Part shown: in pieces, positions 26,388-38,706 of the stretch
Position numbering within the stretch: position 1 is the first letter of the stretch
Layout of the letters: every line of letters begins with the position of its first letter
Source of the DNA: Flavobacterium sp. SM15
GTDB taxonomy: Bacteria > Bacteroidota > Bacteroidia > Flavobacteriales > Flavobacteriaceae
Length of the DNA: 64,000 nucleotides
Assembly (NCBI RefSeq): GCF_022012335.1
Contig: NZ_JAKLTO010000001.1
Span: 248,001 to 312,000 of the forward strand
Reading direction: 5' to 3'
Notes under the pieces: model-generated
Told to the model about the DNA's origin: nothing
What the model saw: the letters and a program-made list of their open reading frames with translations, nothing else
Databases searched by the model: none
Program-made: the position numbers and the translations under genes

Positions 26388-29030
26388 ATGAAATACTTTG
26401 CCCTTGTTTTGGCAATGCTCTTTTGCACAACCTTACACGCCCAAACCATAAAAGGAACAGTTCGAGACAGTATCGCAGCTGTTCCTTTTGCCAATATTCT
26501 CATCAAGAAAAAAAGCAACCCAAAATCCGTTTATCTTTTTGCTTCAACCGACGAAAACGGTCATTACAACATTCAGCCAAAATTCCAACTGGACTCGCTA
26601 ATAGTTGAAGTAACTTCATTAGCTCACGAACCTGCTGTTTTTGATTTAAACAAATTCAAACCAGAGCAAAATACACTTTTACTTAATGTGAATTTAAAGG
26701 AGCGAACCTCCCAACTTAAAGAAGTCATCATTACAAAAAAACCTGCAATCACGGTAAAAAAAGACACTCTAGAGTACAACCTTGAGCGTTATAAAGACGG
26801 AACAGAAAAGGTAGCAGAAGACGTACTAAAAAAACTTCCCGGAGTGAAAGTAGAATCAAACGGAGAAATCAAATACAAAGGGAAAACCATCAAAAAATTG
26901 CTCTTGGACGGAGACGATCTTTTTGATTCTCAGTACTCATTAGGTTCGAAAAATATTAGTGCCGATATGATTGAAAAAGTACAAGGGATTGACCATTACG
27001 AAGAAAACTCCTTGCTAAAAGGAATTAGAGACTCCGATGATGTCGCCTTAAACCTTGTCCTTAAAAAAGGGAAGACCGACTTTTCAGGAAACACCACGCT
27101 GGGCTACGGTTATAAAGAAAATTTTTATGGAAACTTAAGCGGTATGCTAGTTAATAAAAAACATAAAGGTTTCTCTTTAGCATCTTATAACAATATTGGC
27201 CAAAATAACACCCCTTACAACTTTGATTCCTCCATAGTATCCTTGGAAAGCATCAACAATAAAGACATTCTCGCCAAAGAGCTCATCAGTCAGGGAGATT
27301 ACTCATCTTCATTGGACCCAACACTTCACCGACTGAACAAGACTACGTATTTCAGTTACAATCATTTGATGAAGACAGCCAAGAATTCAACTTTAAAATT
27401 CAATGTGAGTTATTATCAGGATCAGCTTACCCGAAAGAATGAAAACACAACAGAATATCAAATTGGAGAAGATCATTTTACAGTAATTGAAACCAATACG
27501 CTGATTAAAAAACCTTTTGTTTATGACGGCCGCATTCATTACTCCAACAAAGAGAAAAAAAACTTTCACTGGGAATATTTAAGCAAAGTGAATTACCAGC
27601 CGACAATCTTCAATGATTTTAGTAATAATAACGGAACACAACAAGAAAATAAAGTAACTACAAAACCTTTTGCAATCAACCAAGAGCTGAACGCTACTTT
27701 AAAAATGAGCGAACTGAGTGCCTTGACCTCTAAATTTAATTATTCCTTTAGTGAAGCACCTCAACAGTATGAAACAAATCCCGGAACCCCTATTGATTTT
27801 AATGGCAACACAACCGCTCAAAATCAATACAGCAATTACAAAAAAGAATTCCTGAACTTGCGCACTCTATTTCTAGCAAAGAAAGAGCAATTTAACTTTG
27901 GTGTGATGCCTTTGGTCGTTTTTTCAAAGTCTAAATTACGTTCGCTTTTAAAAGATTCTTACAACCAAAGTTTAGGTGATGCTTTTGAAAACAACAATCA
28001 ATACACAATAACCAGTTACGGAATGAACACTTCTGTTTCCTATAAAAATGATAAAAATTTAGCCTTTAAATTCAGTTTGGTAAATGCGTACAACACTTTG
28101 GAACTTAACGATTACCAAAGGTCGATCAAAAGCACAGAAAAAGGCTTTGTTGTTACCCCAAGACTGATTGCCAAATACATTTTCGGTCAGCGGGACAATC
28201 TTTCTTTTCTGTACAGTTACAACCAAATTACACCCGAAGAAGATAAATTATTTACCGGAATTGTGCAAAGCTCATACCGTGGTTTTTCATCCAATGAATT
28301 AGCTTTGGCGTACCTTAAAACACATACGTATCGCTTGGATTTTGCGCACAATAATTTTTTTAAACTGACGCAATATGCCATCGCTTTTGAACACAACTAC
28401 CATCCCAATAATTACTTCAGCAAAACCCTTATTAACCAAAATATTACAGTTTTCAACTCTTTTTATGCCAACATTGGCAATAAAGATTATACACTGTCTG
28501 CCAATGGCATGAAGTACCTGCATCCCTTACTTACCACCTTTTTTATAAATGGAAACTACACACTGTCATTAAACAAAAATATTGTAAATACTTCTGAACT
28601 AAGAACCATAGAAAATCGTGTATTGTTTATTGATTTGACAGGACGAACCGGTTTTAAATCCAGACTGAATCTGGAAAACAAAACCAGCTTTTCCCAAAAC
28701 CACTATGAAGTTAAGAACACAGCTTTAAAAAGTAATTTCCAAAGTTTCAGCAATCAAACCAAATTGATTTACAAACACAGCGATGTTTTGAAAGCATATG
28801 TCCTATGCAATTACACCATGCCCGGATTACATCAGAAAAATTATGCCTTTGTAGAAAGTGAAATCACCTACGAACCTAAAAATAAAAGTCTGAGTTATGC
28901 ACTGGTTGGTAAAAACCTAACCAACAATAACACTTTTAAAACACAAAGCATTTCTGATATTTCAAGTTCGAGAAGCACTTACAACCTTATGGAACGCTAT
29001 ATAATGTTCAAACTTACAGCTTCGTTCTAA
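26388..29030 (+). CDS. TonB-dependent-receptor-like outer-membrane protein
   Basis: The 880-residue protein has a signal peptide (1-18, ending TLHAQ) and a carboxypeptidase-regulatory-like domain (about 20-105: IKGTVRDSIAAVPFANILIK). A plug-like domain follows (about 115-230: DTLEYNLERYKDG, VLKKLPGVKVESNGEIKYKG, IEKVQGIDHYEEN). The rest forms a long barrel ending in an aromatic residue, FKLTASF. This is the outer-membrane TonB-receptor architecture, but no Ton box was identified, so transport is not certain. It is co-transcribed with the GLPGLI gene (two-base gap). Its end overlaps the convergent gene at 29014 by 17 bases. Confidence 0.82.
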   Translation: MKYFALVLAMLFCTTLHAQTIKGTVRDSIAAVPFANILIKKKSNPKSVYLFASTDENGHYNIQPKFQLDSLIVEVTSLAHEPAVFDLNKFKPEQNTLLLNVNLKERTSQLKEVIITKKPAITVKKDTLEYNLERYKDGTEKVAEDVLKKLPGVKVESNGEIKYKGKTIKKLLLDGDDLFDSQYSLGSKNISADMIEKVQGIDHYEENSLLKGIRDSDDVALNLVLKKGKTDFSGNTTLGYGYKENFYGNLSGMLVNKKHKGFSLASYNNIGQNNTPYNFDSSIVSLESINNKDILAKELISQGDYSSSLDPTLHRLNKTTYFSYNHLMKTAKNSTLKFNVSYYQDQLTRKNENTTEYQIGEDHFTVIETNTLIKKPFVYDGRIHYSNKEKKNFHWEYLSKVNYQPTIFNDFSNNNGTQQENKVTTKPFAINQELNATLKMSELSALTSKFNYSFSEAPQQYETNPGTPIDFNGNTTAQNQYSNYKKEFLNLRTLFLAKKEQFNFGVMPLVVFSKSKLRSLLKDSYNQSLGDAFENNNQYTITSYGMNTSVSYKNDKNLAFKFSLVNAYNTLELNDYQRSIKSTEKGFVVTPRLIAKYIFGQRDNLSFLYSYNQITPEEDKLFTGIVQSSYRGFSSNELALAYLKTHTYRLDFAHNNFFKLTQYAIAFEHNYHPNNYFSKTLINQNITVFNSFYANIGNKDYTLSANGMKYLHPLLTTFFINGNYTLSLNKNIVNTSELRTIENRVLFIDLTGRTGFKSRLNLENKTSFSQNHYEVKNTALKSNFQSFSNQTKLIYKHSDVLKAYVLCNYTMPGLHQKNYAFVESEITYEPKNKSLSYALVGKNLTNNNTFKTQSISDISSSRSTYNLMERYIMFKLTASF

Positions 29031-29400: not shown

Positions 29401-30375
29401 TTACACATTTCGGCTCATCAAATGCTCTCCAAAGGTTTTTAAAACCGCTTTTTTATCGTGGTCAATTTGCATCTTTTCCAGAGTTTCAAAGGCTTTGAAG
29501 GTATACTCACGAATCGCCTGCTGCGTCGCTTCACTGGCTCCGGTTTGATTAAAAATCGTTTTCACGGAAGCAATTTTATCGCTGTTGTTGTTCGGGTGAA
29601 TTGAGAACAAATGCAGCAATTGTTCTTTTATATCTTCTTGGGCAAACTCTACCGCTTTCAGATAAAGATACGTTTTTTTATTTTCAATAATATCTCCGCC
29701 CACTTGTTTTCCAAAAGTTAACGGATCACCAAAAGCATCCAGGTAATCGTCCTGCAATTGGAATGCGATTCCTAAATTCAATCCGAAATCGTAAATTAAA
29801 TTTGCATTCTCTTGGGAAGTTTCTGCCACAATCGCACCCATTTTCATAGCAGCCCCCACTAAAACAGCGGTTTTGTATTCGATCATTTTCAAATATTCGG
29901 GAATGCTTACATCGTCACGGGTTTCAAAATCGACATCCCATTGCTGACCTTCACAAACTTCCAAAGCCGTTTTACTGAAAAGTTTAGCCAAATCACGGAA
30001 AATCTCAGGCCTGTAATGTTCAAAAAATTGATAGGCTAAAATTAACATGGCATCTCCGGATAAAATCCCTGTATTCAGATCCCATTTTTCATGAACCGTT
30101 TCATGGCCACGGCGTAACGGAGCATCGTCCATGATGTCGTCGTGCACCAAGGAGAAATTATGAAAAACCTCAACCGCTGTTGCTGCCGCCAATGCACTTT
30201 TATAATTTGCATCGAAAACTTCCGCTCCCATCAAGGTTAAAACCGGTCGGATTCGCTTCCCGCCCAAAGACAAAATATACTGAATGGGCTCGTACAAATT
30301 TTTAGGTTCACGTTCAATGGAAAGCTCTGAAAAATGACTGGAAATAAAGGATTGGTACTCAGAAATGGAATGCAT
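29401..30375 (-). CDS. Polyprenyl diphosphate synthase
   Basis: Trans-isoprenyl chain-elongating enzyme that condenses isopentenyl diphosphate with an allylic diphosphate. The 324-residue protein has LGGKRIRPVL, the first Asp-rich motif DDIMD (followed by DAPLRRG) and the second Asp-rich motif DDYLDAFGD, all metal-diphosphate binding. The small-residue pattern before the first motif (VEVFHNFSLVHDD) does not by itself fix product length, so farnesyl, geranylgeranyl or longer chains (menaquinone tail) are possible. ATG 30375 is preferred to an upstream non-ATG start at 30405. The divergent promoter region carries the TetR-type operator. Confidence 0.9.
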   Translation of the reverse strand: MHSISEYQSFISSHFSELSIEREPKNLYEPIQYILSLGGKRIRPVLTLMGAEVFDANYKSALAAATAVEVFHNFSLVHDDIMDDAPLRRGHETVHEKWDLNTGILSGDAMLILAYQFFEHYRPEIFRDLAKLFSKTALEVCEGQQWDVDFETRDDVSIPEYLKMIEYKTAVLVGAAMKMGAIVAETSQENANLIYDFGLNLGIAFQLQDDYLDAFGDPLTFGKQVGGDIIENKKTYLYLKAVEFAQEDIKEQLLHLFSIHPNNNSDKIASVKTIFNQTGASEATQQAIREYTFKAFETLEKMQIDHDKKAVLKTFGEHLMSRNV

Positions 30376-30420: not shown

Positions 30421-30488
30421 AATGTTAATTTTTACATAAAAACTTGGAAACTTTTTAAGTATTCAAAGTTTCCATTATACATTTGCAC
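30421..30488 (+). promoter_or_regulatory. TetR-type operator and promoter, copy 1 (metallo-hydrolase gene)
   Basis: GGAAACTTT (30446-30454) and AAAGTTTCC (30465-30473) form an inverted repeat. TACATTTG (30478-30485), an exact -7 element, begins four bases later. The AATGTTAA at 30421, the GGAAAC-N16-GTTTCC core and the -7 element occupy the same relative positions as in copy 2 before the tetR gene, with about 48 of 67 bases equal. The repeat covers the -33 to -10 region, so binding should repress. Confidence 0.75.
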
Positions 30489-30508
30489 TGTAATTAAAAT
30501 GATCAACG

Positions 30509-31603
30509 ATGCTAACTGCAACTTTAATAACCTTATTAACAATCTTTTCTGTAATCGTCTTTATAAGGCAAGCACAATTCGGGAGAACGCCAAAAGGCGC
30601 ACGTTTGGCAAAAATCAAAGCTTCACCTAATTACAGAAACGGAGTATTTCAAAATCTAAACCCTACCCCAGATTTAACTGAAGGAGCCACAATGCTGTCG
30701 GTTGCTAAAGAATTTATCTTTCACAAAAAGGAGCGCAACAAACCTTCAAAGGAACTTCCAACCGTAAAGACCGACTTACTTCAATTGGATCCTAAAAAAG
30801 ACGTTATGGTTTGGTTTGGACACTCTTCCTATTTTATTCAACTTGACGGAAAGAAAATATTGGTCGATCCCGTTTTGAGCGGAAATGCATCACCTGTTTC
30901 CTTTACAACAAAAGCATTTAAAGGCACAAATGATTACAATGTTAATGATATCCCTGACATTGATTATTTGTTCATCACCCACGACCATTGGGATCATTTG
31001 GATTACCGAACCGTAAAACAATTGCAAAACCGAGTTAGAAAAGTAATTTGCGGCTTAGGAACCGGTGAACATTTGGAGCGTTGGGGATTTACTTCGGAAC
31101 AACTACTGGAGAAAGACTGGAACGAATCGTTTACCTTAGAGGATGGCTTTTCCGTTACTACGGTACCGGCACGTCATTTTTCAGGACGCGGCTTTAAACG
31201 CAACAAAGCACTTTGGATGTCGTATGTTTTACAAGCCCCTTCATTAAAATTATTCCTTGGTGGCGACAGCGGTTATGATACTCATTTTGCAGAAGCCGGT
31301 GAAAAATTAGGCCCTTTTGATTTGGCGATTTTAGAAAACGGCCAATACGACAAGAGCTGGAAACACATCCACATGATGCCGCAAGAAGTGTTAAAAGCGA
31401 CTCAAGAATTAAAAGCCAAGAAATTGTTTCCGGTTCACTCTTCAAAATTTGCATTGGCCAATCATGACTGGGACGAACCACTTAAAAAAATTACAAGTCT
31501 AAAACAAAATACTGATTTACAATTAGTAACGCCTCGAATAGGAGAAATCACCTACCTAAAACAAGATCAGAAATTTTCGAAATGGTGGGAGTTTATCAAT
31601 TAA
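30509..31603 (+). CDS. MBL-fold metallo-hydrolase (NAPE-PLD/UlaG-like)
   Basis: The 364-residue protein starts with a hydrophobic helix (about 1-20), probably a membrane anchor or uncleaved signal. A metallo-beta-lactamase fold follows: WFGHSSYFIQLDGKKILVDPVLSG (about 102-125), the metal motif His158-x-His160-x-Asp162-His163 (THDHWDH), VPARHFSGRG and LGGDSGYD. The layout matches N-acyl-phosphatidylethanolamine phospholipase D-like hydrolases; the true substrate is unknown. Its promoter contains the same operator as the efflux operon, so it is probably controlled by the TetR protein encoded at 31746 and may deal with the same toxic compounds or lipid damage. Confidence 0.85.
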   Translation: MLTATLITLLTIFSVIVFIRQAQFGRTPKGARLAKIKASPNYRNGVFQNLNPTPDLTEGATMLSVAKEFIFHKKERNKPSKELPTVKTDLLQLDPKKDVMVWFGHSSYFIQLDGKKILVDPVLSGNASPVSFTTKAFKGTNDYNVNDIPDIDYLFITHDHWDHLDYRTVKQLQNRVRKVICGLGTGEHLERWGFTSEQLLEKDWNESFTLEDGFSVTTVPARHFSGRGFKRNKALWMSYVLQAPSLKLFLGGDSGYDTHFAEAGEKLGPFDLAILENGQYDKSWKHIHMMPQEVLKATQELKAKKLFPVHSSKFALANHDWDEPLKKITSLKQNTDLQLVTPRIGEITYLKQDQKFSKWWEFIN

Positions 31604-31661
31604 TTCGAATCTTGATAGATCAAAACACCTTTTAAGTCCCGTATTTTCAAGACTTAACCTT

Positions 31662-31729
31662 AATGTTAAATAAATGTGAAAACTATGGAAACTATTTTTG
31701 TGTTAAAAGTTTCCATAGTAAATTTGCAT
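31662..31729 (+). promoter_or_regulatory. TetR-type operator and promoter, copy 2 (tetR-efflux operon)
   Basis: CTATGGAAACT (31683-31693) and AGTTTCCATAG (31708-31718) are perfect 11-base inverted arms. TTTTG (31696-31700), an 18-base spacer and TAAATTTG (31719-31726) form a textbook Bacteroidota promoter inside the repeat. The operator overlaps the -33 box, as for a repressor. Copy 1 lies at 30421-30488. Confidence 0.82.
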
Positions 31730-31745: not shown

Positions 31746-32342
31746 ATGAAAGAGAAAATCATGTCCAAAGCCAAGGAAATGTTCTTAAAACTAGGATTTA
31801 AGAGCGTAACTATGGACGATATTGCAGGTGAGATGTGCATCTCCAAAAAAACGATCTATAAATACTTCTGCAACAAAGAAGTATTAGTGGAAGAAACAAC
31901 GGAAAGAATCCACAACGACGTCAATGAAAAAATTAATACCATGACGTTACAAAACTTCAATGCTATTGAAGAAAATTTTGAAATCCAGAAGATGTTTAAA
32001 GAGATGTTTAAATCCTACGACACTTCTCCGGTATATCAATTAAAAAAACACTATCCGATGATTTATACCAAAATTCAGGAAAAAAGCATCGAATTCTGCA
32101 ACGGCAACTTCAGAAGCAATATAGAAAAAGGAATTCGGGAAGGTTTGTACAGAGCAGATTTAGACATCAAAACTACTGTTGAATTTTATTACACCTTAAT
32201 ATTCAATATCAACGAAAATACCATTTACGAAAAAGATGTACACGAACTGGAAATAAAAGCTTTGGAATACCACACCCGGGCCATTGCCACGCCAAAAGGA
32301 ATTATAGAACTTGAAAAACACTTACAAAATCCTAATATCTAA
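31746..32342 (+). CDS. TetR/AcrR-family transcriptional repressor
   Basis: The 198-residue protein has an N-terminal TetR helix-turn-helix (about 8-50: FLKLGFKSVTMDDIAGEM, ISKKTIYKYFCNKEVLV) and a helical ligand-binding C-terminal part. It is the first gene of the tetR-tolC-adaptor-RND operon. Its stop codon shares one base with the tolC start (TAATG), so expression is coupled. The inverted repeats before this operon and before the metallo-hydrolase gene are its likely binding sites, which predicts autorepression relieved by a pump substrate. The regulon is inferred from the matching sites. Confidence 0.9.
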   Translation: MKEKIMSKAKEMFLKLGFKSVTMDDIAGEMCISKKTIYKYFCNKEVLVEETTERIHNDVNEKINTMTLQNFNAIEENFEIQKMFKEMFKSYDTSPVYQLKKHYPMIYTKIQEKSIEFCNGNFRSNIEKGIREGLYRADLDIKTTVEFYYTLIFNINENTIYEKDVHELEIKALEYHTRAIATPKGIIELEKHLQNPNI

Positions 32343-33679
32343 TGAAGAATCTATTTATAATCACACTAATAACCCTTGGTTTCTCAGCAAATGCTCAGGA
32401 AGTCAAAGAGCTTAGCCTTAAAGATGCGCTTACTTTTGCGCTGGAAAATAAAGCCGAAGCCAAAAAAGCAAAGCTGAACGTTGAAAACAGCGATCATCAA
32501 ATTGCCGAAGTTCGAGCAATGGCTTTACCACAAATCAGCTTAAACGGAGGATTAACTTACAATCCTATACTCCAAAAAAATGCTTTACCGGGCAGTTTTT
32601 TTGGTGGCGAGGAAGGTTCCATTGTTTTGGTGCCGCTTGGTCAGAAATGGAGCAGTAACGGAACGGTTAGTTTAACCCAAAATCTATTCAACCAATCGGT
32701 ATTTACCGGATTAAAAGCAGCACGTTCCACTCGTGAATTTTATACTATCAACCAGCAATTAACCGAAGAACAACTAATTGAAAAAGTTTCGAGCTGTTAC
32801 TATCAGGTATACATCTCCAAACAACAACTGGGCATCGCCGAAAATAACTTAGCAAGTACCCGAAAAGTGCGTGAAATTATTAAAGGACAGTTCGATAACG
32901 GTTTGGCAAAAAAAATTGATTTAGACCGTATTTCCGTTAAGGCAAGTAATCTTGAAGCAGCGCGTTTACAATTAAGCAATGCTGTACAACTTCAGGAAAA
33001 CACTTTAAAATTCTTTATCGGAATGCCGATGGGTCAGCAAATCAAGTTACCGGAAAACACCATGGAGGTAACTGCGGATGCCTTTACCAGCAAAGCCGAA
33101 ATTGAAAACCGAACCGAAATGTCTTTACTTAAAAAACAAGAACAGTTGTTAGGGTTTCAAAAGAAAACGTACCAGGCAGAATATTACCCTGTTCTTTCAT
33201 TAAGTGCTAACTACGGTTATTTAGGGCAAGGAACTAAAATGCCCTTGGGAGGAAAACCGAATGATGTGTTCTGGTCGGATTTTTCATCGATAGGACTAAA
33301 CCTGCATATTCCGGTATTTAACGGATTCTCTACCCGATCCAAAGTACGTCAGGCCGAAGTGAGCTTAAAGAAAATCGAAGAAGACATTAAAGACACCGAA
33401 CTGGCTTTAAATTACCAGTTTGAAAACGCAAAAACCCAACTTAACAACAGCATCATCAACATCAAAACTCAAAAGGAAAATGCTGATTTAGCCAAAACGG
33501 TTTTAGAAAACACAAAAAACAACTATGTAAACGGACTGGCTTCTTTAACAGAACTGTTAGATGCAGAAAACGCTTTATCAGAAGCACAAAACAATTACAC
33601 TACAGCGCAATTAGAATACAAATTAGCTGAAATACAGATCATCAAATCAAAAGGAGAATTAAAAAATTTAGTAAACTAA
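32342..33679 (+). CDS. TolC-family outer-membrane efflux channel
   Basis: The 445-residue protein has a signal peptide (about 1-18, ending FSANAQ) and two repeats of long helices plus barrel strands typical of the outer-membrane efflux family. Examples are LSLKDALTFALENKAEAKKA, SLTQNLFNQSVFTGLKAAR, and the matching C-terminal LNYQFENAKTQLNNS with LAKTVLENTKNNYVNGLASL. As a trimer it forms the exit duct of the tripartite pump encoded with the two following genes. Its ATG overlaps the tetR stop by one base, and the adaptor starts seven bases after its end. Confidence 0.92.
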   Translation: MKNLFIITLITLGFSANAQEVKELSLKDALTFALENKAEAKKAKLNVENSDHQIAEVRAMALPQISLNGGLTYNPILQKNALPGSFFGGEEGSIVLVPLGQKWSSNGTVSLTQNLFNQSVFTGLKAARSTREFYTINQQLTEEQLIEKVSSCYYQVYISKQQLGIAENNLASTRKVREIIKGQFDNGLAKKIDLDRISVKASNLEAARLQLSNAVQLQENTLKFFIGMPMGQQIKLPENTMEVTADAFTSKAEIENRTEMSLLKKQEQLLGFQKKTYQAEYYPVLSLSANYGYLGQGTKMPLGGKPNDVFWSDFSSIGLNLHIPVFNGFSTRSKVRQAEVSLKKIEEDIKDTELALNYQFENAKTQLNNSIINIKTQKENADLAKTVLENTKNNYVNGLASLTELLDAENALSEAQNNYTTAQLEYKLAEIQIIKSKGELKNLVN

Positions 33680-33686
33680 TCAACCA

Positions 33687-34760
33687 ATGAACAAGAAAAT
33701 AATCACAGGAGTAATCATTTTAGGCGCTTTAGGTCTAATCGGATTCATATTAAGCAAAAACAAAGCGAGCAACGAAGCCAAAACTGCAGTGGTTGCCGAA
33801 AATAACGCGACCGTAGTTGTTAAAACCGATACGGTAAAAACTGAAGCCGTAAATCAGGATTTTGTAGCCAACGGAACCTTTGCACCGGCTCAAGAACTTA
33901 ATTTCTCTGCAGAAAAATCTGGAAAAGTAATCAGTGTTCTAGTAAAAGAAGGTGACCGAGTAAGCAAAGGACAAACTTTAGCAGTAGTGCGTGGTGATGT
34001 AATTAATGTGGAAGCACAAACCGCCAATGCCAATTACCAAAACGCCTTAAACGACTACAACCGTTTTGAAAACGCTTATAAAACCGGCGGGGTAACCAAA
34101 CAGCAATTGGATCAGGCGCGAATCAATATGGTTAATGCAAAATCAAGACTTACTCAGGCCAACATTAATGTGGGAGATACCAGAATTAAAGCTCCATTTG
34201 GTGGAATCATCAACAAAAAATACATCGAAGTAGGAACAATTTTAGCCGGAATGCCTCCAACGCAAATGTTCGAAATTGTAGATGTTTCCAAACTAAAACT
34301 GAAAGTTACGGTAACCGAAAACCAATTAAGTGGTTTAAAAGTGGGCAGTCCGGCTAAAGTGACTTCTAATGTATTCCCAGATAAATCCTTCAACGGAAAA
34401 ATCACTTTCATAGCACCAAAAGCGGATGCAGCCTTAAATTTTGCCGTTGAAATTGAAATTGCCAACAATGCATCAGGAGACTTGAAAGCCGGAATGTACG
34501 GAACCGCGAATTTCGTTCCAACCACAACCGATAAAACGCCGCTTATGATTGTACCAAGAACCGCTTTCGTGGGAAGTGTAAGCGCAAACGAAATTTTTGT
34601 AGTGGAAAAAGACGGTTCGGCTAAACTTAAAAAAGTAACCGCAGGTAGAATTTTTGGAGAACAAGTGGAAATTTTAGGCGGATTATCCAATGGTGAAATC
34701 GTAATTACCAGTGGACAAATCAACTTAACCGACGGAACAAAAGTAACGGTATTAAAATAA
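33687..34760 (+). CDS. RND efflux periplasmic adaptor (HlyD/AcrA-like)
   Basis: The 357-residue membrane-fusion protein links the RND pump to the TolC channel. A single N-terminal hydrophobic segment (about 4-24) anchors or exports it. Lipoyl-like halves flank a coiled-coil hairpin (about 65-165: GKVISVLVKEGDRVSKGQTL; TRIKAPFGGIINKKYIEVG). A beta-barrel domain and a membrane-proximal end (VEILGGLSNGEIVITSGQ) follow. There is no lipoprotein Cys at the signal. It lies seven bases after tolC and 54 bases before the pump gene. Confidence 0.92.
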   Translation: MNKKIITGVIILGALGLIGFILSKNKASNEAKTAVVAENNATVVVKTDTVKTEAVNQDFVANGTFAPAQELNFSAEKSGKVISVLVKEGDRVSKGQTLAVVRGDVINVEAQTANANYQNALNDYNRFENAYKTGGVTKQQLDQARINMVNAKSRLTQANINVGDTRIKAPFGGIINKKYIEVGTILAGMPPTQMFEIVDVSKLKLKVTVTENQLSGLKVGSPAKVTSNVFPDKSFNGKITFIAPKADAALNFAVEIEIANNASGDLKAGMYGTANFVPTTTDKTPLMIVPRTAFVGSVSANEIFVVEKDGSAKLKKVTAGRIFGEQVEILGGLSNGEIVITSGQINLTDGTKVTVLK

Positions 34761-34814: not shown

Positions 34815-37800
34815 ATGAAATTAGCAGAAATATCCATTAAACGTCCGTCGCTGGTGGTCGTGCTCTTCACGATACTAACCCTAGGAGGATTGTTTAGTTA
34901 CGGGCTTTTAGGATACGAATTGATCCCGAAATTTGAACAAAACGTAATCAGTATCGCCACGGTGTATCCGGGGGCTTCACCGGGTGAGGTGGAAAATACG
35001 GTTACCAAAAAAATTGAGGACGCGATTTCCTCGATGGAAAACATCAAAAAAATTGAATCGAAATCCTATGAGAGTTTATCTACGGTGGCCATTCAGCTTA
35101 CCAGTAATGCCGATGCAGATGTTGCCCTGAATGATGCGCAACGTAAGGTTAACGCAGTTTTAGGGGATTTACCTGATGATGTAGATCAGCCTTCCTTGAG
35201 TAAATTCTCCTTGAGTGACTTACCAATTATGACCATCGGAGCAAACGCCAAAATGGACGAAGCGGAGTTTTTCGATTTAATTGACAAAAAAATCAAACCG
35301 ATTCTTTCAAGGGTAAACGGTGTGGCACAAATCAACTTAGTAGGTGGTGCGGAAAGAGAAATTCAGGTAAATCTGGATGCTGATAAAATGAAAGGTTTTG
35401 GCCTATCGGTTCCTCAAGTACAACAGGCTGTTTTGGCTTCCAATTTGGATTTCCCAACCGGAAACATTCAAACCCGTGAACAAAAAATCTTGATCCGTTT
35501 AGCCGGAAAATACAAAACGGTTGACGAATTAAGAAATCTGGTAATTGCCAGCGCCAACGGTTCTCAAGTGCGTTTAGGCGATGTAGCCGATGTACAGGAT
35601 GCTCAGAAAATCGCGGAAAAAATTGCCCGTGTAGACCAAAAGAACGCCATCATCTTACAAATTATCAAACAATCCGATGCGAATGCTGTGGAAGTAAGTG
35701 AGCACGTTCAAGTATTGTTGGAGCAATTGAAAAAAGATTACGCAAAAGACGACCTTCAATTAAACATTGCCAACGACAGTTCAGTATTTACTTTACAAGC
35801 TGCAGATTCGGTAATTCATGACTTGATTCTTGCAGTATTGTTGGTGGCTTTGGTGATGTTGTTCTTCTTGCACAGTGTGCGTAACTCGTTAATTGTAATG
35901 GTTTCGATTCCGGCTTCACTTATTGCAACCTTTATCGGTTTCGTAGTGATGGATTACACCTTGAATTTAATGAGTTTGTTAGGACTTTCGCTTGTGGTAG
36001 GTATTCTTGTAGACGATGCCATCGTAGTACTCGAAAACATCTACAGGCACATGGAAATGGGTAAAAACCGAGTGCGTGCCGCTTACGATGCAACAGCTGA
36101 AATTGGTGGAACGGTAACCTCGATTACCCTAGTAATTGTAGTGGTGTTCTTGCCGATTGCCATGAGTACCGGACTGGTTTCCAACATCATTACGCAATTC
36201 TGTGTAACCGTTGTTATCTCGACCCTTTTGTCCTTATTGTCATCGTTTACTATTGTACCTTGGTTGTCTTCCCGTTTTGGAAAATTAGAGCACATTGAAG
36301 GAAAAAATCTTTTTGGAAGAATCATTTTAGGTTTCGAAGCACAATTGACCCGTTTTACCAACTGGGTAAGTAACATTTTGGTTTGGGCTTTAGGTCATAA
36401 AAAAACCACTTTAACTGTTGTTGTTGCCATGTTCTTTGGATCTCTGTATATGGTTGCCGGAGGTTATGTAGGTGGGGAATTCTTCGCCCGTTCCGATGCC
36501 GGAGAGTTCTTGGTTCAGATTGAAATGCCGAAAGACGCTTCCTTGGAACAAACGAACTTCATGACTCAAAAAGCAGAAGCATTTCTTAAAAAACAAGAAG
36601 ATGTTACCAATTTAATCACAACGGTTGGTCAAACTTCGGAAGGGTTTTCAGGTTCTCAGTCTACCGCTTATAAATCGGAAATCCGTGTAAAAATGGTAGA
36701 TCAGAACGAGCGTGAAGACGATTCTTATGTGTATGCCGCGAAAATCAAACGTAAACTGCAACAGGAATTAGTAGGTGCCAAAATCAAAACCGTGGGTATG
36801 AGCATCATGGGTACGGCAGAAGAAGCGCCTTTAGCTTTAGTAGTAACAGGAACAACTTTAGACAGCGCGATGGTATTTGCTAAAGCTGCTGAAAAAGAAC
36901 TGTATAAAATTGCCGGGGCTTCCGAAATTAAATTATCGGTAGAAACCGGAAATCCGGAAATTAACGTTCAGGTAGACCGTGATAAAATGGCCGCTCTTGG
37001 TTTGAACTTGCAAACTGTGGGTATGACCATGCAAACCGCCTTCAGTGGAAATACCGACAGTAAATTCCGAGCGGGAGAATACGAATACGACATCAACTTA
37101 AAATACAACGATTTCAACCGTAAAAATATTGACGATGTAAGCAACCTTACTTTTGTCAATAACATGGGAGAACAAATCAAATTATCGCAATTTGCTACCG
37201 TAAAAGAAGGATCGGGACCAAGCCAATTGGAGCGTCGTGATAAAACGGCCTCAGTGACTATTAAAGGACAGACCGTTGGTCGCCCTACCGGTACTGTAGC
37301 TGCGGAATGGCAATCGAAATTTGAAAAACTGCGCAAACCAACCGGAGTAAATTACGTTTGGGGCGGTGATATGGAAAACCAGACAGAAGGTTTTGGTACT
37401 TTAGGATTTGCCTTATTGGCAGCAATTATTTTGGTTTACCTGGTAATGGTAGCTTTATACGACAGTTATGTTCACCCGTTTGTGGTATTGTTTGCAGTAC
37501 CATTATCGTTCATTGGAGCCTTATTGGCACTTGGTTTAACCAACAACTCGCTAAACATCTTTACCATATTAGGGATTATTATGCTAATTGGATTGGTGTG
37601 TAAAAACGCGATCATGCTGGTCGACTTTACCAATCAGCGTAGAGCGGCAGGGGAAACAGTACATACGGCTTTAATTCAGGCGAACCACGCTCGTTTAAGA
37701 CCAATTTTGATGACGACCATTGCGATGGTGTTTGGTATGTTACCTATTGCGCTTGCTTCCGGAGCCGGTGCAGAATGGAAAAACGGTTTGGCTTGGGTAA

Positions 37801-37988
37801 TTATTGGAGGATTGATTTCTTCTTTATTCCTGACCTTGGTGATTGTACCTGTAATTTATGACATCATGGACAAACTCGTTCACAAATTCACAAAAGGTGA
37901 AACCAAAGATTATGGTGCTTTAATGACTGAAGACTATGTAGCCAACGAAGTAAGCGAAGACGGTTTTACCCCTACACATACAATGTAA
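34815..37988 (+). CDS. RND multidrug efflux permease (HAE1 type)
   Basis: Inner-membrane proton-driven pump of 1057 residues. The first membrane helix (about 9-30) is followed by the porter region (TVYPGASPGEVENTVTKKIED). Proton-relay aspartates Asp400-Asp401 lie in GILVDDAIVVLEN in helix 4, and the second half repeats the layout (LGIIMLIGLVCKNAIMLVDF, then RLRPILMTTIAMVFGMLP). The length and paired halves fit the hydrophobe/amphiphile efflux branch rather than metal pumps, which have different helix 4 residues. It is the last gene of the tetR operon; a terminator follows. Confidence 0.94.
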   Translation: MKLAEISIKRPSLVVVLFTILTLGGLFSYGLLGYELIPKFEQNVISIATVYPGASPGEVENTVTKKIEDAISSMENIKKIESKSYESLSTVAIQLTSNADADVALNDAQRKVNAVLGDLPDDVDQPSLSKFSLSDLPIMTIGANAKMDEAEFFDLIDKKIKPILSRVNGVAQINLVGGAEREIQVNLDADKMKGFGLSVPQVQQAVLASNLDFPTGNIQTREQKILIRLAGKYKTVDELRNLVIASANGSQVRLGDVADVQDAQKIAEKIARVDQKNAIILQIIKQSDANAVEVSEHVQVLLEQLKKDYAKDDLQLNIANDSSVFTLQAADSVIHDLILAVLLVALVMLFFLHSVRNSLIVMVSIPASLIATFIGFVVMDYTLNLMSLLGLSLVVGILVDDAIVVLENIYRHMEMGKNRVRAAYDATAEIGGTVTSITLVIVVVFLPIAMSTGLVSNIITQFCVTVVISTLLSLLSSFTIVPWLSSRFGKLEHIEGKNLFGRIILGFEAQLTRFTNWVSNILVWALGHKKTTLTVVVAMFFGSLYMVAGGYVGGEFFARSDAGEFLVQIEMPKDASLEQTNFMTQKAEAFLKKQEDVTNLITTVGQTSEGFSGSQSTAYKSEIRVKMVDQNEREDDSYVYAAKIKRKLQQELVGAKIKTVGMSIMGTAEEAPLALVVTGTTLDSAMVFAKAAEKELYKIAGASEIKLSVETGNPEINVQVDRDKMAALGLNLQTVGMTMQTAFSGNTDSKFRAGEYEYDINLKYNDFNRKNIDDVSNLTFVNNMGEQIKLSQFATVKEGSGPSQLERRDKTASVTIKGQTVGRPTGTVAAEWQSKFEKLRKPTGVNYVWGGDMENQTEGFGTLGFALLAAIILVYLVMVALYDSYVHPFVVLFAVPLSFIGALLALGLTNNSLNIFTILGIIMLIGLVCKNAIMLVDFTNQRRAAGETVHTALIQANHARLRPILMTTIAMVFGMLPIALASGAGAEWKNGLAWVIIGGLISSLFLTLVIVPVIYDIMDKLVHKFTKGETKDYGALMTEDYVANEVSEDGFTPTHTM

Positions 37989-38173: not shown

Positions 38174-38521
38174 TTAATTTCGATTTGCCAACCCGTCTTT
38201 AGACCATTTTTTAACTTCAGCAACTTTGCTTTTAGCATAATCCACTTCCGCTAACGATGCGTTATTCCAGAAAAACCATTTTCCGGATTTCATTCCATCA
38301 GTATATTCTCCTATAGATTGTTTGGATCCGTCTTCATTAAAAGCAACCCATTTTCCGTGTAATTTTCCGTCTTTGTAGAACCCTTCCTGTTTAACCTGAC
38401 CGTTATCGTAATAATAAGTGGCTTTAACCATCTTTCCGACAATTTCATATTTAGGTTCGATATTTTGGGCAAATAATACTCCTGAAAACAATAACAATCC
38501 TGCAATTAAGTTCTTTTTCAT
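38174..38521 (-). CDS. Secreted MORN-repeat-like protein
   Basis: The 115-residue protein begins with a signal peptide (about 1-18, LIAGLLLFSGVLFAQ). It has MORN/YwqK-type repeats of the form YYDNGQVKQEGFYKDGKLHGKW and EYTDGMKSGKWFFWN. Such repeats form a beta-hairpin sheet; in Bacteroidota they are often annotated YwqK-family antitoxin, but no toxin gene is adjacent, so that label should not be taken as function. ATG 38521 is chosen because it starts the signal peptide; an upstream TTG-initiated frame is unlikely. Location is probably periplasmic or surface. Confidence 0.75.
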   Translation of the reverse strand: MKKNLIAGLLLFSGVLFAQNIEPKYEIVGKMVKATYYYDNGQVKQEGFYKDGKLHGKWVAFNEDGSKQSIGEYTDGMKSGKWFFWNNASLAEVDYAKSKVAEVKKWSKDGLANRN

Positions 38522-38706
38522 AGCGTTGTTTTTTAATAGGTTAACAATTATACAAACGAAGTTACAACTTAAATTTACATTTGCGAAACTTTCACTTAAC
38601 AATTTCGTAACATTGAATAAAACTTAACACAACCAAGTAAAATCCTACAATTTTAAAATTGCATTTATAATTAACCTGCTAAGTTTCAAACTCAAAAAAT
38701 AAAACT

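Follow-up and report, generated by a model that had tools for sequence, protein, structure and literature searches.

A palindromic operator predicted for a TetR-RND efflux cassette and its exchangeable accessory gene in Flavobacterium

The window considered here, a stretch of 64,000 nucleotides from Flavobacterium sp. SM15, contains a locus in which a polyprenyl synthetase gene on the minus strand is followed by operator 1, a hydrolase gene, operator 2, and the genes of a TetR-family regulator, a TolC-like protein, an adaptor, and an RND permease. Its features, with predicted operators and promoter elements, are the following:

29401..30372, minus strand: polyprenyl synthetase (PF00348, 2.2e-77), divergent neighbour and slot boundary, frequent neighbour in relatives, not claimed as a target
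30421..30488, plus strand: operator-promoter module of the hydrolase gene (AATGTTAA, operator, -7 box), 48/68 identical to 31662-31729
30446..30473, no strand: operator 1, GGAAAC-N16-GTTTCC with 10-bp arms (30445-30474), conserved in relatives
30478..30485, plus strand: -7 element TACATTTG, predicted transcript start ≈ 30490 (rule of PMC6847099, see below)
30509..31603, plus strand: NAPE-PLD-like hydrolase of metallo-beta-lactamase fold, slot occupant (PF12706, 7e-40; NAPE-PLD 4qn9, E 3e-37)
31662..31729, plus strand: operator-promoter module of tetR, 48/68 identical to the hydrolase module
31687..31714, no strand: operator 2, GGAAAC-N16-GTTTCC with 12-bp arms (31682-31693 / 31708-31719)
31719..31726, plus strand: -7 element TAAATTTG, predicted transcript start ≈ 31731 (same rule)
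31746..32342, plus strand: TetR-family regulator (PF00440, 2.3e-10; all-helical model, pLDDT 91.2; best structural matches TetR-family)
32342..33679, plus strand: TolC-like outer-membrane efflux protein (PF02321, 7.3e-53)
33687..34760, plus strand: RND periplasmic adaptor (TIGR01730, 2.9e-62, above the cut-off)
34815..37988, plus strand: RND permease (PF00873, 1e-251)

Directly downstream of the pump operon, a small protein with a MORN_2 repeat is encoded at 38174-38524 on the minus strand.

The TetR_N helix-turn-helix domain of the regulator scores 40.5 bits against a cut-off of 24, and its predicted model comprises ten helices, the closest PDB structures among the 50 matches listed, including SmeT, being TetR-family regulators with moderate TM-scores of 0.42-0.72. 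The hydrolase aligns over residues 65-353 with NAPE-PLD (4qn9), such that its HxHxDH motif and a later His, Asp, and His coincide with residues of the latter that we take to bind metal; this alignment, together with the PF12706 match, assigns it to the metallo-beta-lactamase fold with HxHxDH and further ligands. In contrast to NAPE-PLD, it is of bacterial origin and has a hydrophobic segment at its N-terminus.

Early on, the modules preceding the hydrolase gene and tetR were described as two copies of one element with identical spacing, and this has been borne out. GGAAAC-N16-GTTTCC occurs exactly at the two operator positions and nowhere else in the window, as compared to none (0 expected) in 100 dinucleotide shuffles. 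The estimate of about 48 equal positions was also correct in an ungapped comparison, but the module measures 68 rather than 67 nucleotides. Mononucleotide shuffles of one module (100,000) gave a mean identity of 22.2 (sd 3.6) and a maximum of 40, and, the second module apart, the first matched the plus strand of the window at no more than 37/68 positions; on the minus strand it found its own palindrome (39/68), and otherwise at best 38 positions at 28610. The octamer AATGTTAA begins 25 nt ahead of GGAAAC in both modules (30421-30428 and 31662-31669), and four nucleotides after each palindrome a box fitting TAnATTTG follows, at identical spacing on both the hydrolase and the tetR side. That the modules are alike merely through copying of one from the other, with no regulation involved, is hardly credible: the 48 agreeing positions do include AATGTTAA outside the operator, but in relatives both sites have kept exact arms amid flanking bases that differ.

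For F. johnsoniae a -7 element TAHHTTTG, a transcript start 4-5 nt past this box, and a generally weak -33 element have been described (PMC6847099). Applying this start rule, the operator is predicted to occupy ≈ -44 to -17 at both promoters, corresponding to the -33 and spacer region; it thus covers the promoter, as had been proposed, at a position slightly further upstream than the -33 to -10 given originally. The tetR promoter carries a -33-like TTTG at 31697 with a spacer of 18, and the hydrolase promoter of the window has no TTG-like -33 element at the usual spacing. With a palindrome over the tetR promoter itself, adjacent to the pump operon, the window displays the arrangement of an autoregulated local efflux repressor.

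When up to two arm mismatches were permitted, the motif proved too unspecific (274 matches in the source genome compared to 189 of the reversed control), and therefore a composite site was adopted, consisting of exact arms and the -7 box, i.e., the palindrome, N3-5, and TANNTTTG. Three exact palindromes exist in the source genome, and the -7 box is present at the two window sites only; the third (L003) falls within a reading frame of 347 amino acids and was dropped as a chance occurrence. The search of genome and relatives suggested in the preliminary description thus returned two sites in the source genome and, beyond it, composite sites in 76 of 81 Flavobacterium genomes of one draw and in 274 of 299 of a larger draw that includes the 81, mostly one or two per genome and never more than three. 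The reversed pattern had no match in any of the 299 genomes.

Sites and tetR genes were compared in the 81-genome draw, the counts for the 299 genomes being taken from a per-genome table. Instead of appearing at many unrelated promoters, all 95 composite sites of the 81 genomes had a tetR homologue no more than 2.5 kb away, the least similar being 38% identical. Of these sites, 49 are upstream of tetR by at most 150 bp and 45 by 151-2500 bp, each on the same strand; the one remaining site, on the opposite strand (G152), coincides with the palindrome of its neighbour. A genome-wide regulon is ruled out by the absence of any composite site away from tetR in this draw, and since all 95 are found beside tetR, the predicted regulon is the tetR-pump cassette itself. 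The earlier proposal that TetR represses its own efflux operon and the hydrolase gene thus receives comparative support. One may object that a TetR-family operator cannot be read from a protein sequence, TetR binding here being a prediction from DNA, so that another regulator might use the palindrome and TetR would merely be encoded next to it. This is very unlikely in view of the association of all 95 sites with tetR, even where the homologue is only 38-44% identical, of the operator preceding a tetR of the same order but a different family (G457, L218), and of helix-turn-helix residues 30-45, in which the window protein and 23 aligned relatives show no variation. In six genomes (G177, G203, G240, G296, G303, and G434) two composite sites lie ≈ 8-14 kb apart, which suggests tandem paralogous tetR-pump cassettes; two tetR matches were obtained only in G177 and G203.

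Five of the 81 genomes are devoid of the composite site, one having no tetR match and four a tetR only 34-36% identical. The strict composite is missing from 25 of the 299 genomes, 6 without and 19 with a tetR match at 1e-15; in 15 of the latter a variant operator (N15 or one arm mismatch) is situated within 250 nt upstream of tetR, in one case (L282) with no -7 box behind it, and in one further genome tetR sits at a contig end. L266, L267, and L284 have no operator within 250 nt upstream of the tetR homologue, with TetR proteins 62-68% identical in the first two and a weak homologue in the third. Shuffling one 250-nt upstream region 300 times never produced more than 10 of the 12 arm bases. 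At the family level, tetR was matched in 140 of 149 genomes, and the 30 best loci (window included) comprise 27 exact palindromes and three with 11/12 arm bases, one of these with N15. At the order level, 20 of 148 genomes contain the composite (reversed control, 1 of 148), only two of them outside the family (G457 and G520); the site in G457 precedes a TetR gene.

Eighty named loci (L079-L158) were fetched with the TetR protein, a set that leans to close relatives and in which a few genomes give two loci. The palindrome is exact in 79 of them and 11/12 in the remaining one. An operator is found within 160 bp of tetR in 59 loci, and in the other 21 none with at least 11/12 arm bases occurs within this distance; direct autoregulation of tetR, as predicted from operator position, is therefore not universal in this set. 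Two cassettes of Flavobacterium type reside on contigs labelled as Klebsiella pneumoniae MAG (L133) and Lentimicrobium MAG (L105), which are probably mis-binned. The octamer AATGTTAA is exact 25 nt before the operator at 11 of 13 sites (two in the window and 9 of 11 in close relatives), the other two being a one-base and a two-base variant; across the named loci it occurs exactly upstream of 10/47 tetR-proximal and 10/111 distal sites. It does not fit a divergent -7 box.

Operator 1 marks a slot bounded by the polyprenyl synthase gene on one side and tetR on the other, which is empty in many species. Upstream of tetR, 68 of the 80 named loci have a YceI-family gene and 2 the hydrolase, the remaining 10 having neither of them, and among 30 loci of the genus draw yceI is present in 17, the other 13 having neither yceI nor the hydrolase. 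Of 20 stretches chosen from this draw, 19 lie between a distal site and tetR (the twentieth, G179, is not a slot); they contain yceI in 12 cases, an SDR dehydrogenase in four (G161, G175, G208, and G210), a small muconolactone-isomerase-like protein with a Pfam score under the cut-off in one (G227), and no recognised gene in two. One of the 12, G166, combines yceI with an SDR-like gene, each preceded by its own operator. The YceI domain scored 109.9 (L107), 83.9 (L096), 69.0 (L190), and 44.6 bits (L191) in the four proteins scanned, with a cut-off of 23.7, the other YceI occupants being called solely from their tblastn similarity to L107. The slot operator is thus retained while the gene behind it changes between yceI, hydrolase, SDR, and muconolactone-isomerase-like types. 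A TTG-like -33 element at a spacer of 19 was present in 64 of 73 loci with a distal site, and 33 of 47 tetR-proximal promoters had none. Downstream of the slot operator a further operator is found in 38 of the 73 loci, 50-52 bp away in 37 and 44 bp in one; the former distance is equivalent to about five helical turns and would suit cooperative binding.

In at least five genomes (G152, G321, G422, G377, and G439) a TANNTTTG box occurs on both strands of the palindrome, and the slot palindrome may there also cover the divergent polyprenyl synthase promoter. YceI proteins are known to bind isoprenoids. One might hence ask whether the slot operator mainly controls the synthase, which adjoins the slot in most loci, with slot gene and pump responding to an isoprenoid signal. 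We consider this improbable, despite the doubled boxes and the isoprenoid-binding occupants: in the window the composite exists on the plus strand only, the opposite strand having no TANNTTTG at N3-5 from the palindrome, 94 of the 95 sites have the orientation of tetR and the slot gene, and a housekeeping prenyl synthase would be an unlikely target for a tight repressor.

A homologue of the hydrolase at E 1e-60 or better is encoded in 117 of the 299 Flavobacterium genomes (window included). Twenty-nine non-window hydrolase loci were fetched from these genomes, four of them in the slot, and L081 was contributed by the named-locus set. The hydrolase accordingly occupies the slot in the window and in five other loci (L080/L189, L081, L190, L191, and L192), with 62-73% identity to the window protein; L080 is F. 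cauense and L081 F. humi, and L189 (G319) is evidently the same genome as L080, with the site at the same contig position. The operator directly precedes the hydrolase gene in L080/L189, L081, and L191. In L190 and L192 the order is operator-yceI-hydrolase, with 3 nt between the two genes in L190, and then operator-tetR; in L191 operator-hydrolase is followed by operator-yceI-tetR, such that yceI stands beside the slot hydrolase in three of the five other loci. F. enshiense (L079), whose TetR is closer to that of the window than any other of the named loci (91%), contains neither gene and keeps the operator before tetR. In a tree of 60 rows the six slot hydrolases form one side of a branch with a support of 79, the limit for a closed fork being 80.

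Unlinked hydrolase homologues were represented by 54 loci (L050-L078 and L193-L217), a subset of all matches; none has an operator with at least 11/12 arm bases within 400 nt upstream, and three reach 10/12. On these 54 loci, the idea of an operator belonging to the hydrolase family was rejected. In the 81-genome draw the composite is found within 3 kb of one of 31 hydrolase genes, the window's own. Judged from its distribution, the operator is a property of the position next to tetR, not of the hydrolase. On the basis of the single tree branch and of the 54 operator-free homologues, the hydrolase probably entered an older slot under operator control by a single capture, with yceI lost in some descendants, and its presence there looks like a lineage-specific recruitment. 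The preliminary description had suggested that the hydrolase may belong to the response of the pump; the operator before the gene agrees with this, but being tied to the place beside tetR it does not accompany the hydrolase elsewhere, and a general link between NAPE-PLD-like hydrolases and RND pumps does not follow, as most named relatives hold YceI in the slot.

The hydrolase could be a bystander behind an existing TetR-controlled promoter, with no functional link to the pump, a proposal compatible with the regulatory part of the explanation preferred here. The unlinked homologues, the single hydrolase gene near a composite, and the tree group, which is compatible with one capture, are all in keeping with it. 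On the other hand, operator control of the hydrolase in five other loci, at 62-73% identity and in three gene orders, suggests selection for co-regulation, and the other occupants form a restricted set, possibly related to lipids or detoxification. Taken together, we regard the bystander proposal as a serious one, albeit rather doubtful. It is possible, though slightly less likely than not, that across Flavobacterium one repressor and pump keep the same switch while accessory genes are exchanged behind it, each providing a second way, enzymatic or lipid-binding, to handle what the pump exports.

With regard to the mechanism, TetR very probably represses both its own tetR-tolC-adaptor-RND operon and the slot gene through GGAAAC-N16-GTTTCC, with relief by a ligand; we infer binding, repression, and ligand from the positions, sequence, conservation, and co-occurrence of the sites. 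The palindrome would be the operator of the protein encoded at 31746-32342, whose dimers would bind both copies, probably two dimers per site since about two turns of the helix separate the outer arms. Repression would be steric, with bound TetR blocking RNA polymerase at the -33 and spacer region: at operator 2 it would shut the tetR-tolC-adaptor-RND operon, and at operator 1, separately, the slot gene, in this case the hydrolase. A small, perhaps hydrophobic toxic compound or a lipid may release TetR, whereupon pump and accessory protein would be switched on together; the hydrolase might then act on the inducer or on lipid damage caused by it, and the slot proteins in general might have a detoxifying or lipid-related role. 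Against a uniform picture stand the window hydrolase promoter, which has no clear -33 element, and the 21 of 80 named loci with no tetR-proximal operator.

AcrR, TtgR, and SmeT exemplify a well-known type of TetR repressor, which acts on an RND pump through a palindromic operator. Like the window system they are encoded beside an RND-type pump, on its upstream side, with a palindromic operator over their own promoter; the window differs in operator sequence, in its Bacteroidota promoter type, in having tetR as the first gene of the pump operon, and in carrying a further operator at its variable accessory gene. In Bacteroides, the TetR-type protein BmeR, which represses an RND pump, is likewise located beside its pump and belongs to the same phylum. 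QacR-type operators are bound by two TetR dimers; the window sites resemble them in arm spacing, being long inverted repeats whose arm centres are separated by about two turns of the helix. In Burkholderia xenovorans, MgxR (Bxe_B3018), a TetR-family regulator with a methylglyoxal response, is adjoined by a YceI-family gene (the following locus number) and has an operator within the promoter of its own gene, much like the Flavobacterium cassette; operator and phylum are different, and the description, as far as the source was available, contains no RND operon (PMC4349456).

Along these lines, a TetR-TolC-adaptor-permease operon has been reported for F. johnsoniae UW101 (TetR FJOH_RS06575, TolC FJOH_RS06580). 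Its tolC was mutated in four of five lines coevolved with antibiotic-producing Burkholderia, the changes including G83R and an 11 bp repeat, and a 33 bp deletion in tolC, not the point mutation, lowered susceptibility (PMC10197871). In F. johnsoniae CI04 (L142), whose slot gene is yceI, tolC encodes Gly (GGA) at codon 83 and contains a 9/11 direct repeat where the 11 bp repeat was reported, and because of these matches the two operons are probably the same; operator, YceI, and hydrolase do not feature in the accessible description (PMC10197871).

In summary, this is an efflux repressor of an ordinary kind whose operator is clean and whose accessory slot varies in content. In the openly licensed literature searched, no description of this exact operator, of its confinement to the cassette in the genomes examined, or of the exchange of accessory genes behind it was recognised, and for the Bacteroidota the searches listed no report of such an operator. 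An exact, testable operator is thereby provided for a TetR-pump system found in most of the Flavobacterium genomes sampled, in a pump operon that is probably the one mutated under antibiotic pressure in F. johnsoniae (PMC10197871). The co-regulated gene becomes readable from sequence, and a functional partner is suggested both for YceI and for the NAPE-PLD-like hydrolases of bacteria; if accessory genes are indeed exchanged behind a constant switch, the contents of the slot could read out the class of inducer.
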